DNA from: Enchytraeus crypticus | Taxonomy: Eukaryota; Annelida; Clitellata; Enchytraeida; Enchytraeidae | DNA length: 64,000 bases | Reading direction: 5' to 3' | NCBI GenBank assembly: GCA_905160935.1 | Contig: CAJHZI010000451.1 | Location: forward strand, 111,001-175,000 | In this document: in pieces, positions 27 to 53,703 of the stretch | How the letters are laid out: each line of letters opens with the position of its first letter | Position numbering within the stretch: position 1 is the stretch's first letter | Position numbers and translations under genes: made by a program | Notes under the pieces: generated by a model | What the model was told of the DNA's origin: nothing | The model's input: only the letters and a program-made list of their open reading frames with translations | Database searches by the model: none

Positions 27-157
27 AGATCGTTATATAAGAGCGACACATCAGCCGCAGCGTTGATGAGAAAAGAGTTGGTTTTTCCCGGATGATCCAA
101 GTCATGAACAATGGCTGATAACAGTGCTGCTACCTCGTCCACCTGGTCAAACAGGTT
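27..157 (-). CDS. PDE8: PDE8 exon 16: catalytic core, HDxxHxxxxN metal-binding motif
   Basis: Coding exon, 131 nt, entered in phase 0 after a ttttccag acceptor and left in phase 2 at CT|GTAAGT. It encodes about residues 585-628 of the assembled protein. The peptide contains [13 protein letters not shown], the class I cyclic-nucleotide phosphodiesterase signature HDxxHxxxxN whose His and Asp bind the catalytic metals, and ends in LLYND. This stretch is very close to vertebrate PDE8 as I remember it. It is the last exon visible: the remaining catalytic helices, including the glutamine that contacts the nucleotide, lie past base 1. A GATC/AATC-rich array begins about 8 bp upstream of the acceptor. 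Confidence 0.95.
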
Positions 158-850: not shown

Positions 851-1049
851 CTTGACCTTGTCGCAGCCTAAGAAGTAGGAGGTAGCATGCATTACGTCAG
901 CAGCGTGGGTGGAGTTATGATATGGATTGACAGGTCTGTAATTGCTCTCAATCATCTTCAGCCAGCCAGCCATCATGGCGTCATCGACGTTAAGAAACTC
1001 CATCACCTCGAACCTGGTCAGGGTCCGCATGGCCAGGTGTAGCAACGGA
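851..1049 (-). CDS. PDE8: PDE8 exon 15: start of catalytic domain, HNSTH motif
   Basis: Coding exon, 199 nt, entered in phase 2 (AG|T, Ser) after ttcgtag and left in phase 0 at AAG|GTGAGT. It encodes about residues 518-584. The order LLHLAMRTLTRFEVMEFL, a WLKMIESNY helix, then NPYHNSTHAADVMHATSYFL matches the N-terminal half of the PDE8 catalytic domain. In YHNSTH the first His is the general acid of the family and the second binds metal (about residues 562 and 566). This is the most diagnostic exon for PDE8 (the human equivalent runs NPYHNSTHSADVLHAT). Confidence 0.97.
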
Positions 1050-10058: not shown

Positions 10059-10634
10059 CTGTAACAAGAGGCAGTACAGTGCAATACAGTACAATGCAGT
10101 ACAATGCAGTACAATGCATTACAATATAGTCCATTACAATACAATGCAGTGCAATACAGTACAATGTAGTACAATGCAGTACATTACAATGTAATGCAAT
10201 GAAATGCAGTACAATACAGTACAATGCAGTACAATGCAATACACTACAGTAATTTGCAGCACAATAGTGCACAATAAACTTGGGACAACGTCATACAATT
10301 AAATCTAATACAAAAAATTGTAATAGAAATAAATACAATGCAATTCAAACAATATAATGTAGTACAGTTAGCCTACATTCTATGCAATACATTGTAATAC
10401 AAAGCAGAGCGAAACAAGTTAATACAATGTAATTTAATACAGTTCAATGCAAAATTGTGCAAAACACAATAAAATAAAATACCAAGCAGTATATATTAGA
10501 ATACCCATTAACTTTCCGATTATATTATTTAGTTGCGTTTATAACGTTAAAGCAACAGTAACAAAATAAGTATAGACGAAATCAATGAAAAACCAGATTT
10601 CATATTTGCTCTCAAGCTAATGGCATCAGCTTAC
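10059..10634 (-). other. PDE8 intron 10
   Basis: Dominated by a 10-bp minisatellite (10072-10262), then AT-rich sequence with scattered degenerate copies of the same motif to about 10450. Donor A|GTAAGC. Confidence 0.85.
10072..10262. repeat. 10-bp GTACAATGCA minisatellite
   Basis: About 18 imperfect copies of GTACAATGCA. The reverse complement, TGCATTGTAC, is the same motif as the CATTGTACTG repeats in intron 14 (about 1440-2080). Confidence 0.9.
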
Positions 10635-11769: not shown

Positions 11770-12080
11770 CTGCATTTATCACACGATACAGTAAAATACA
11801 ATACAATAAAAATTTAATTTCATACAGTACACACAGCAGCGTGGTAATAAATTCAAAGTTTCAAGCGACAAATTAGATTTCAGTTTGAATCAGCAATTTT
11901 AAATTTGTATCTCTAGTAGTACAGATAATCATAATGACAAAAACTTTATCTCACCGACCAGGTAAAGTGCTTACATTGTCCTTTCACAGTATTATAGTCA
12001 AACTATTAAAATCATTTATTCGCTGTGAATCATAAATCTTGAAAGTGATCCAAGGAATACAAAAGATCTCGATGTCTCAC
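11770..12080 (-). other. PDE8 intron 8
   Basis: Short intron (311 bp), donor GG|GTGAGA. AT-rich, nothing recognised in it. Confidence 0.85.
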
Positions 12081-12169
12081 CCAGACTGAGACTTGACCGG
12101 TATAACTCTTGATTTCTGAGTAATTTTCTCTCCATCTTTTCTCTTCATCTGCACAGTTCCCTCCCATAC
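12081..12169 (-). CDS. PDE8: PDE8 exon 8: PAS domain strand
   Basis: Coding exon, 89 nt, phase 0 in, phase 2 out at GG|GTGAGA. About residues 327-356: VWEGTVQMKRKDGEKITQKS then RVIPVKSQSG, aligning with the family's EWQGIYYAKKKNGDNIQQNV and KIIPVIGQGG. The acceptor CTGCAG|GTATGG also reads as a good donor. The acceptor and the first 15-16 exon bases are repeated upstream in a minisatellite (12157-12640). Confidence 0.92.
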
Positions 12170-12640
12170 CTGCAGCAACAACAACAACAACACTGCAGTG
12201 ATACCATGGAGTTCCTTCCCATACCTGCAGCAACAACAACAATACAGCAGTGCAGTGTTACCATGAAGTGCCCTCCCATACCTGCAGCAACAACAACACC
12301 AACACTGCAGTGATACCATGGAGTGCCCCCATACTCACATCAATAACAACAACAGCACTGCAGCGATACCATGGAGTGCCCTCCCATACCTGCAGCAACA
12401 ACAACAACAGCACTGCAGTGATACCATGGAGAGCCCCCATACCTGCAGCAACAACAACAGCACTGCAGTGATACCATGGAGTTCCTTCCCATACTTGCAG
12501 CAACAACAACAATACTGAAGTGATACGAAGAAATGTCCCCATATCTGCAGCAACAACAACAACAGCACTGCAGTGATACGAAGGAATGCCCCATACCTGC
12601 AGCAACAACAGCAACAGCTACTAGAAATAACCATCAGCTA
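12157..12640 (-). repeat. Minisatellite of duplicated exon 8 splice acceptors
   Basis: Nine tandem units of 50-57 bp. On the minus strand each reads (TTG)n CTGCAG, then GTATGGGAGGGAACT-like sequence, then CCATGGTATCACTGCAG. The unit nearest the gene supplies the real exon 8 acceptor. On the plus strand CTGCAG begins at 12170, 12225, 12282, 12390, 12442, 12545 and 12597, so at least seven units keep the AG. Six keep AG|GTATGG. The units at about 12334 and 12495 have lost the AG. Most decoys would shift the frame. Confidence 0.9.
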
Positions 12641-12849: not shown

Positions 12850-12990
12850 CTTTCCTTTCTTTAGAAGAGAGTTGAGGACATCAATGGTGGTAGATTGGTC
12901 GACATTTGGGGGCAGAAATTCGGCCAAACTTTTGCCCAAAACTTCTTCCTGGCTGTAACCCAGCGAACTCTCAAACGCTCTATTGACATA
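12850..12990 (-). CDS. PDE8: PDE8 exon 7: PAS domain core
   Basis: Coding exon, 141 nt, acceptor tttattttcag, donor AAG|GTGAGA, phase 0 both sides, so it can be skipped without a frameshift. About residues 280-326. YVNRAFESSLGYSQEEVLGK is a textbook PAS motif (compare YANPAFETTMGYQSGELIGK), then LAEFLPP and a helix ending LLKKGK. The PAS domain of PDE8 is thought to mediate protein contacts and regulate activity. Confidence 0.95.
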
Positions 12991-13478
12991 CTGAAAATAA
13001 AAGTCATCAAATTTGATAGCTATTTTCGTCCTTTTAATCTTGATAATCTCGAGTAACCGATTGATTATAAGCAAGTTCTTTTCGTTGAATAGTTTATTTT
13101 AAAACTACGGGCCGATATAATTAAATTTGCATATTATATTGCGCAGTTGCAAGAGCAAGTTTATTAACTGGAGTGTTACCACGTACATACCACATGCCAA
13201 ACATTAGATCTCTCGGTTTTTCAGTTATTTAATTAACACACGCTAACCAGTGTTTCTCTCAGAATTTTTAAGTTAATTAATTAACTCGAGCCAACAATTG
13301 TATCTCAGATTGTTTAATGAATTTAACTCACACTAACCACTATATCTCTTAGACTGTTTAATTAATTAACTCACAATAACCGCTATATCTCTCATATTGC
13401 TTAATTAATTAATTAATTAACTCACACTAACCACTATATCTCTCATATTGTTCAATTAATTAATTAACTCACACTAAC
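12991..13478 (-). other. PDE8 intron 6
   Basis: Donor GTG|GTTAGT. The half nearest exon 6 is a donor-containing tandem array (13235-13490). The rest is unique AT-rich sequence. Confidence 0.9.
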
Positions 13479-13490
13479 CACTATATCTTT
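13235..13490 (-). repeat. Tandem array of duplicated exon 6 splice donors
   Basis: About six units of 43-52 bp. On the minus strand the unit is GATATAGTG|GTTAGTGTGAG followed by TTAATTAATTAA and CAATATGAGA. ATATAGTG is the 3' end of exon 6. Donor-like hexamers (plus strand actaac or variants) lie at 13473 (real), 13426, 13375 (GTTATT), 13332 and 13242 (GTTAGC). One further unit near 13290 is degenerate. Use of a downstream decoy would add an in-frame TAA after GTTAGTGTGAGT. Confidence 0.88.
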
Positions 13491-13652
13491 TTGACAGTCT
13501 GCGGATGAGATGTCCACAGATTCGACGCTTTGGTCTACAGCAGCTAACATGGCTTCAGCCAGCCTCAATCTCTGCTGTAGCATAACATCTACCAGCTCTA
13601 TAACCATCAGCTCCCCCACACACACACCCACTGAGCAGCACTCGAGAAATTG
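13479..13652 (-). CDS. PDE8: PDE8 exon 6: linker helix between receiver-like and PAS domains
   Basis: Coding exon, 174 nt, acceptor gattgattgcag, phase 0 both sides, donor GTG|GTTAGT. About residues 222-279: QFLECCSVGVCVGELMVIEL, a helical VMLQQRLRLAEAMLAAVDQS, then DISSADCQKDIV. It corresponds to the family's MACYNELLQLEFGEVRSQLK to EITSEDRFIQ. The real donor is the last unit of a tandem array, and an AATC run forms part of the upstream intron. Confidence 0.93.
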
Positions 13653-17149: not shown

Positions 17150-18850
17150 TGTTTTGATTGATAGACGAGTAGTTGTATAGAGTTTGTTTTCCCTTACATG
17201 TTTAGGGAAAAAATCTAAGCATCTAGTTCCTGGCAACATCACTGCTGACTCCCTTAACGATCATTATACTAATATATCAGCTGACCCTAAATACTCTACG
17301 CCTCTCTTCAAAAGTACCAATTCTAAGGCCGATTTTAGACCACTTTCTGAATTTCAAGTTTTTAATATATTGAACAACCTGAAGCCAACCGCTACTGGTT
17401 TGGATGGTCTAACTGCCTGGTTTCTCAGGTTATCTGCTCCTGTATTCTGTCAACCTCTAACAACACTTTTAAATGCGTCCATGGCACAGTCTGTTGTCCC
17501 TAATCAGTGGAAAACTTCTTGTATAATACCTTTGTGTAATGTTTCTAAACCCTCTACACTTTCCGATTTTCGTCCTATCTCAATCACCCCTGCTCTTTCT
17601 AGACTTTGTGAGAGAGTCATCATTTCAACTTACATTTATCCTGCTCTATTAAGTCCTCCTGCTACACTTTGTTTATATGACCAGTTCGCCTTCAGGTCAA
17701 CCGGATCTACCACAGGTGCCCTGATAGCACTCTATCAGAGTATCTCACAAATGTTGTCAAGTAGTTCCTTTGTCAGAGTCATTGTTCTAGATTTTAGCAA
17801 AGCTTTTGATCGGATCAGACATTCAACTGTTATTGAAAAGTTTGCTGATCTGGACATACCATCTAGCATCCATAATTGGCTTGTTAGTTTTTTTACTGGC
17901 CGTCAACATTGTACTAAATTTTATGGCAATGTATCCTCTACTGCAAATATTTCAGCTAGTGTTGTTCAAGGTTCAGCTATTGGTCCCGCTTCATATTCCA
18001 TTACTGCTTCAGATTTAAGACCTATCCACTCTTATAATGACATTATTAAGTTCGCTGATGATACAGTATCCCATCTCAGTATCTTTATACCACTGACGAT
18101 GAACTTGCTAACATTGACTTGTGGTCCAGTAAGAACAATCTACAGTTGAATAAGTTGAAATCCCTTGAACTTCTTTTCCGTCCTCCGCGATCTAGATTTC
18201 TAGCAAGTTCTGTGCCACCGCCCCTAGTTGGAATTGTCAGAGTGAACACCTTGAAGTGCTTAGGTGTTACACTGCAAATCCAACTTTTCTTTTTCTGTCC
18301 ACGTGGATGATATAATTAGCAGTTGCGCTTCTAATCTTTTTGCCATTCGCACTCTAAAATCAAAAGGTCTTAATTCTGACCTAATTGTCACTGTCTTTAA
18401 ATCTATTGTACTCTCCAAGTTAACATATGCATCGCAATTTTGGTGGGGTTATGTTGGTTCCTCTGAGAGTGAACGCCTTGAAGCCTTCCTCAGGAAGGCT
18501 ACAAGATGTAACTAATATGATGGAGTACGATCTTTTGCGGATATCGCTGCCAATGCAGATGAGAAATTGTTTAACGCTATCATCAGTAACAAACAGCATG
18601 TCCTGCACCGGCTTCTTCCGCCGCTTAAAGATAATTTTAACTTAAGCTCAGGGAGAGGGCTCACCCTTTCTCTCTATCATCTAAGCGCACACCTTTGATG
18701 GATAAGAACTTTATAATTAGAATACTATATAAAGACTCTTATTACGTTTTTTTAAACGATGTCTGCTTATGTTTATTACTTTCTATATTGCCATTTGTGT
18801 GTGTGTACGTTTTCTTCGGTATGTCAGATTTCATGTAATAAACGAATATA
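17150..18850 (+). pseudogene. CR1/Jockey-like non-LTR retrotransposon relic (reverse transcriptase)
   Basis: A 321-codon open stretch (17184-18149) contains reverse transcriptase blocks in order: TATGLDGLTAWFL, SDFRPISITPALSRLCER, DQFAFRSTGSTTGAL, VIVLDFSKAFDRIRHS (first catalytic Asp), SVVQGSAIGPASYSI and the FADD box IKFADDT. After 18.1 kb the frame shifts twice (18119-18310, 18264-18515) through LKCLGVTL and the thumb region, then degrades to a C-terminal NFIIRILYKDSYY-like end near 18.74 kb. The RNA-binding block order and FADD favour the CR1/Jockey group. No endonuclease upstream: 5'-truncated and dead. Confidence 0.85.
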
Positions 18851-23152: not shown

Positions 23153-23352
23153 CTGCAGAGATCGTCTGGGTGTATATTCTTCTTCTCGACGCCAGGTCGG
23201 GTGTCGACGATGATGATGGTGAACCTCTGAGACTTGACGGCATGAAGGGCCTCAGCGTCAGTGGTGGCTGTCAGGCAGTCCGTGCCTCTAGAAGTGGCTG
23301 CCTTGCAGAAGGCATCGCACTGGGGCGTCTTGTTGGGAAATACGAGTAGAAT
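23153..23352 (-). CDS. PDE8: PDE8 exon 3: receiver-like (REC) domain
   Basis: Coding exon, 200 nt, acceptor gcgctgacag, phase 0 in, phase 2 out at AG|GTACGT. About residues 116-182. ILLVFPNKTPQCDAFCKAAT aligns with VLLVFTKEDNQCNGFCRACE, and FTIIIVDTRPG with HDIIIIDHRNP. This is the CheY-like receiver domain peculiar to PDE8. The Asp after IIIV sits at the receiver phospho-acceptor position, but the acidic pair expected after the first strand is absent, so phosphotransfer is unlikely. The exon is more GC-rich than its surroundings. Confidence 0.95.
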
Positions 23353-53350: not shown

Positions 53351-53703
53351 AAAATACATTTCAAACAGTGTTAACCATCCATCGTACAACCTGTACAACA
53401 CTACGTTCTTTTAGTCGGTCCTCACTTTTACTTTACTCAGTTACCACAATAACAATAATTAAATTTTTCTGCTATTTTTCTACTACATTAACGGCAGCAG
53501 AGCCTTAAAGTAGTCACGAAGACCGGTTCTCGTTATCATTGTTGTAGATATGGGATTGATTGTTGTGATCTAACGAAGCATTTAATCAAGGTTTATTTTG
53601 CACTAATACAGCTATTTTATGTGAGCCCTGCTAAATGCAGATTTCATTCATCTCTCTCTCTCTCTCTCTGCCTCTCTCTCTCTGCCCCTCTCTCTCTCTC
53701 TGC

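Follow-up and report, generated by a model that had tools for sequence, protein, structure and literature searches.

A minisatellite across the exon 8 acceptor of a PDE8 gene in Enchytraeus crypticus resembles the mirages of amphioxus

Tandem repeats that extend across exon-intron boundaries have been described in amphioxus under the name of "mirages," in the Adh3 and globin genes, with repeat units ranging in size from 10 to 160 bp (PMC3087553). Many of these units were reported to contain AG/GT signals, RT-PCR suggested that splicing is regular, and the lengths of the arrays were found to be unstable both in somatic cells and between alleles; one mirage had been misassembled in the draft genome (PMC3087553). 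Boundary arrays in TnC and PGBD5 have been added to the amphioxus set, and splicing is reportedly undisturbed in these genes as well (PMC3902484). In the human genome, internal tandem repeats located at exon-intron boundaries in segmental duplications have been associated with alternative transcripts and with novel introns in recent paralogs (PMC2812944). The literature on boundary-spanning minisatellites, as far as our partial coverage of it extends, thus consists of the amphioxus work and one human study, with no PDE8 case among the genes described.

Here, we describe two arrays of this type in a PDE8 gene located on a 64,000-nucleotide stretch of DNA from the annelid E. crypticus, which we refer to in its entirety as the window. 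The repeat unit spans an exon-intron boundary at positions 12155-12618 and again at positions 13208-13490, and many of the units have retained the splice dinucleotide, in one case as an array of acceptors and in the other as an array of donors. Judged by their sequence, both arrays fit the structural definition of a mirage, a kind of structure already known from amphioxus. The features shared with the amphioxus mirages, as these were reported, include units of tens of bases, the involvement of acceptors as well as donors, the retention of many splice signals and a working unit at the exon side. However, splicing and length data have been reported for the amphioxus mirages, whereas the PDE8 arrays are known here from one DNA sequence. 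The human arrays share the overlap with exon-intron boundaries, and in the account available to us a change of transcripts was seen.

The minus strand of the window contains part of the PDE8 gene. This identity is supported by Pfam matches of three exon peptides, to PDE8A_N (3.7e-12), PAS_9 (2.3e-11) and PDEase_I (1.6e-19), and by the best PDB match of the catalytic piece, which was to PDE8A of the human type (E 3e-37). Our gene model consists of 10 exons with 20 junctions, in which the exon numbers are labels only and the upstream exons are incomplete; exons are missing from the model between those labelled 11 and 12 and upstream of exon 6. The ends of exons 11 and 12 were placed by hand among the 20 junctions, and the donor of exon 12 is uncertain. 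Pfam matches and the exon model place the PDE8A_N domain in an exon at 23153..23352 and the PDE catalytic domain, here also with the PDB match, in exons at 851..1049 and 27..157. The reading frame of the model is unbroken from exon 6 to exon 11, and the shortest intron between neighboring modelled exons is 311 nt. Exon 6 is located at 13479..13652, exon 7 at 12850..12990, between the acceptor array and the donor array, and exon 8, which encodes PAS domain sequence, at 12081..12169. The latter is 89 nt long, with its acceptor AG at 12171-12170 and its own donor at 12080, and its frame is continuous with the exons on either side in the model. All of these exons, both boundary arrays and their splice sites and motifs discussed below are on the minus strand, and the coordinates are those of the window.

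The acceptor array occupies the 3' part of intron 7, which is 680 nt long, and runs across the 3' splice site of exon 8. It was recovered by TRF with a period of 55, 8.7 copies and a score of 564, and it corresponds to a nine-copy minisatellite at 12155..12618 with copies of roughly 54 nt and a core spacing of 51-57 nt. In outline, the unit consists of CATGGTATCACTGCAGTG and a TTG run, followed by CTGCAG (in some copies a variant of it), GTATGGG and a few further exon-like bases. The best copies include 15 exon-derived bases, the far copies fewer. The core, TTGCTGCAGGTATGGG, was matched nine times in the window when up to three mismatches were allowed, eight times inside the array and once elsewhere, at 53539, with an expectation from shuffles of 0.24 matches in the whole window; the ninth copy, at 12334, is too diverged for a core match. 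A sequence-only reading of this DNA had proposed that the acceptor, its TTG approach and the first exon bases form the unit of a nine-copy minisatellite in which at least seven copies keep the AG, and this description agrees with the TRF result, the core matches and the copy counts. CAG is present at the aligned position in seven of the nine copies, that is, in the true site and in six of the eight upstream copies, and the remaining two have the AG shifted one base later (CAAG ending at 12494 and TGAG ending at 12334). Across the last 20 nt, the decoy acceptors are nearly identical to the true acceptor. Furthermore, the juxtaposition AG|GT is preserved in the true copy and in five of the eight decoys, where it takes the form CAG|GTATGG, so that the core is also donor-like. 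We observed that the start of exon 11 (8501), behind the acceptor, is donor-like as well (CAG|GTAATA). A second series of AGs in the units comprises seven acceptor-like CAG|TG sites at offsets from 23 to 398. The sequence-only reading mentions neither this series nor the donor-like nature of the core. The exon 8 site is not a NAGNAG tandem acceptor, in which two acceptors lie 3 nt apart; the closest upstream CAG is 55 nt away in the core series and 23 nt away if any CAG is counted.

In an ungapped comparison with the true copy, the identity of the eight upstream copies was 62-94%. The positions that match the true copy number 75 of 80 in CAGGTATGGG, 128 of 138 within the TTG run, 114 of 133 in the sequence that precedes this run and 34 of 72 among the final bases derived from the exon. 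We do not claim from these figures that selection has kept the splice core in the decoys, since the copies are few, homogenization is likely and the ungapped alignment affects the last segment. We also considered an artefact of the assembly, affecting either the number of copies or the array as a whole. Tandem arrays are prone to misassembly, as the amphioxus mirage mentioned above illustrates (PMC3087553), but a false duplication should have produced identical copies, whereas the copies here differ in sequence and in spacing, and a second, independent array of like design is present in the same gene. We therefore consider an artefact to be very improbable.

To examine the coding outcome of decoy use, exon 7 was joined in one step to each AG and the product was translated. 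Four of the six CAG decoys, all of the form CAG|GTATGG, shift the reading frame, as their offsets from the true site are not multiples of 3: the decoys at 12282..12283 (offset 112), 12390..12391 (offset 220) and 12597..12598 (offset 427) give a frameshift and a stop, and the decoy at 12225..12226 (offset 55) gives a frameshift in which exon 8 is read through without a stop. The other two, CAG|GTATGG at 12443..12444 (offset 273) and CAG|ATATGG at 12545..12546 (offset 375), which lacks the GT, are in register at multiples of 3 and run into an in-frame TGA at 12335..12337. The same TGA stops the in-register CAAG copy, whose AG at 12494..12495 is located one base late (offset 324). The decayed TGAG copy likewise has its AG one base late, at 12334..12335 (offset 164). 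Thus, a normal protein was obtained in one step from none of the six CAG decoys. The earlier assertions that most offsets are not multiples of 3 and that a wrong choice is usually destructive are borne out, and the second holds for all six; of the offsets originally listed, 55, 112, 220, 375 and 427 are correct and 272 should read 273.

Some of the other AGs in the array could in principle extend the protein rather than truncate it, and minor isoforms might include intronic units as coding sequence. An open, in-frame extension of 45 codons would result from use of the CAG|TG site at offset 135, and one of 15 codons from use of an AAG at offset 45. However, such inclusions would put a Cys- and Leu-rich low-complexity run into the PAS domain, and the tract upstream of these sites is unfavorable or absent, which makes coding inclusion highly unlikely in our view.

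We think it likely that the array is a mirage in which splicing uses the last copy only, guided by a branch-point A, the skipping of a close AG and exon definition. The array would have arisen by local tandem duplication of a segment that bridged the 3' end of intron 7 and the initial 15 bases of exon 8, with the working splice site at the exon-side end of the array and the upstream copies left as decaying intronic sequence. In the last unit, the true AG follows 29 nt after a branch-point-like A at 12199, in the motif TCAC; an AG located between the two is only 6 nt from the A, probably too close for use. According to the literature, as far as we could consult it, an AG may be passed over if it is less than about 12-15 nt from the branch point, and in other cases scanning selects the first AG downstream (PMC1431707). 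If the A at 12199 is the branch point, the close AG would be skipped and the next AG would be the true one. Most of the decoys also have a branch-point-like motif and a TTG run and these features do not discriminate the true site, which means that the choice would lie between units. A point against this reading is that boundary arrays in human genes are often accompanied by alternative transcripts (PMC2812944).

What may favor the last copy over its equals is exon definition, since it alone is directly followed by a purine-rich stretch and, 89 nt further on, by an exon donor. The purine-rich stretch, a candidate splicing enhancer, is located at 12105..12154 and corresponds to exon bases 16-65. 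There are 20 GAR-type trimers in these bases after the true AG, compared to 0-6 in the corresponding bases after the eight other copies, and a count of 20 was reached by only 2.6% of 3000 50-mers sampled from introns. This contrast follows from the copied part ending at approximately exon base 15. The set of purine-rich trimers was our own choice; a list of hexamers, drawn up with the exon in view and hence circular, was left unused. Masking of the decoys by RNA structure, an idea prompted by the CTGCAG palindromes in the units, five of which read CACTGCAGTG, was also considered and rejected. The unpaired probability of the true AG was 0.009-0.032 in four settings, within the decoy range of 0.001-0.171, and the array folded no better than its shuffles (z -0.84, with 19 of 100 shuffles equally good).

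Another hypothesis is that the array tunes the amount of non-productive transcripts, such that use of a decoy leads to a frameshift or stop and to nonsense-mediated decay, and the dose of PDE8 falls with the copy number. The near-identity of decoy and true acceptors across their last 20 nt and the non-productive outcome of all six CAG decoys in one step are as expected from such a dial, as are the reports that the lengths of amphioxus mirages vary between somatic cells and alleles (PMC3087553) and that boundary arrays in human genes can lead to alternative transcripts (PMC2812944). On the other hand, the amphioxus mirages are described, in the accounts we could draw on, as leaving splicing undisturbed (PMC3087553, PMC3902484), and junction-spanning arrays occur in the PDE8 gene at the frequency expected by chance. 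TRF arrays, 88 after merging, cover 20.4% of the window, or 10.4% if only periods of at least 20 are counted. Two of the 20 modelled PDE8 junctions are inside TRF arrays, and circular shifts gave expectations of 4.1, 2.8, 2.1 and 1.8 at minimum periods of 2, 10, 20 and 30, respectively (P 0.88 to 0.48). Likewise, a local copy with at least 20 matches was found for two of the 20 junction 28-mers, compared to 17% of 400 random positions. An enrichment of arrays at splice junctions was rejected on the basis of these two tests, and the junction arrays are the chance yield of a repeat-rich stretch. There is consequently no sign that the exon 8 array has been kept for a purpose, and we regard a copy-number dial as quite improbable. 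Of the two options offered by the sequence-only reading, strict site selection is in line with the anatomy of the array and the amphioxus precedents, whereas the copy-number dial found no support. Three more arrays end 13-19 nt short of PDE8 junctions, at 171-491 beside the acceptor of exon 14, at 10077-10265 beside the acceptor of exon 10 and at 2011-2082 beside the donor of exon 12, the position of which is uncertain. More generally, boundary arrays bear on the idea that introns are gained from duplicated AG/GT segments.

The second array mirrors the first. Here, the donor of the exon preceding exon 7 recurs as six further copies within the adjoining intron, and TRF and alignment place the array at 13208..13490. 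The true copy consists of the exon 6 donor with about 12 exon bases, and the six that follow it downstream are decayed. The true copy, GATATAGTG|GTTAGTGTGAG, is located at the exon edge and the decay of the copies grows with the distance from the exon. GTG|GTTAGT is exact in two of the six donor copies and GT is present at the aligned position in five of the six, in an alignment that was counted by eye; use of the first copy would lead to TAA after four codons. For exon 6 itself, we favor the donor GTG|GTTAGT at 13478 over one located 6 nt downstream, based on comparisons with PAS profiles, in which the two choices scored 51.3 versus 48.8 bits for PAS_9 and 44.0 versus 39.7 for PAS. An approximate donor matrix instead prefers the downstream site (2.49 versus 1.56). 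Because an acceptor array and a donor array flank one and the same exon, the tolerance of both kinds may be compared within a single gene.

Yet another hypothesis concerns the fused acceptor-donor sequence in the units of the acceptor array, which might serve as tandem recursive-splice points. Use of a decoy would then regenerate a donor, AAG|GTATGG, which would be re-spliced to a later copy or to the true site, leaving the mRNA unchanged. The five decoys and the true copy in which AG|GT is intact have the juxtaposition that characterizes ratchet points, and the regenerated donor scores 4.28 compared to 2.94 for exon 8's own donor, according to the approximate donor matrix. The donor-like GTATGG of the next copy follows after 51-57 nt, where it is intact, with a strength judged by this approximate matrix only. 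This spacing is close to that of the cryptic exons of about 50 nt that flank Drosophila ratchet points, which, from what we could consult of their description, share with the PDE8 array the juxtaposed AG|GT and a similar spacing, of about 50 nt, up to the next donor-like sequence (PMC8605326). However, the Drosophila ratchet points are reported mainly from long introns (PMC8605326), whereas the PDE8 array, which is known here from DNA, is located in the short intron 7 and consists of many near-identical tandem copies. Hops over single units would also be far below the length of the shortest modelled intron, and the EJC is thought to suppress regenerated splice sites (PMC8605326). The presence of AG|GT in the units is explained more simply by the position of the intron at a Lys-Val codon junction, and the donor-type array exists without any such self-correction. 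For these reasons, we consider recursive splicing through the array unlikely, and it is equally doubtful that the fused acceptor-donor array makes the choice of acceptor fault-tolerant, so that it could grow and shrink without a change of the mRNA. If this were the case, the minisatellite would provide the spliceosome with a ladder that corrects itself, and AG|GT boundary arrays would be tolerated because of it. If AG|GT boundary arrays are spliced faithfully, they offer natural tests of how an acceptor is chosen among near-identical tandem sites, and also of whether recursive splicing absorbs mistakes.

In the window, searches against Rfam at gathering thresholds gave no match and ARAGORN with the bacterial code found no tRNA. 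A fragment of a reverse transcriptase was identified on the plus strand at 17181-18149 (RVT_1, 2.5e-16), with similar frames extending up to approximately 18695. Dispersed repeats, defined as self-matches of at least 90 nt located at least 1500 nt apart, formed six groups with 8, 6, 5, 4, 3 and 3 merged places.
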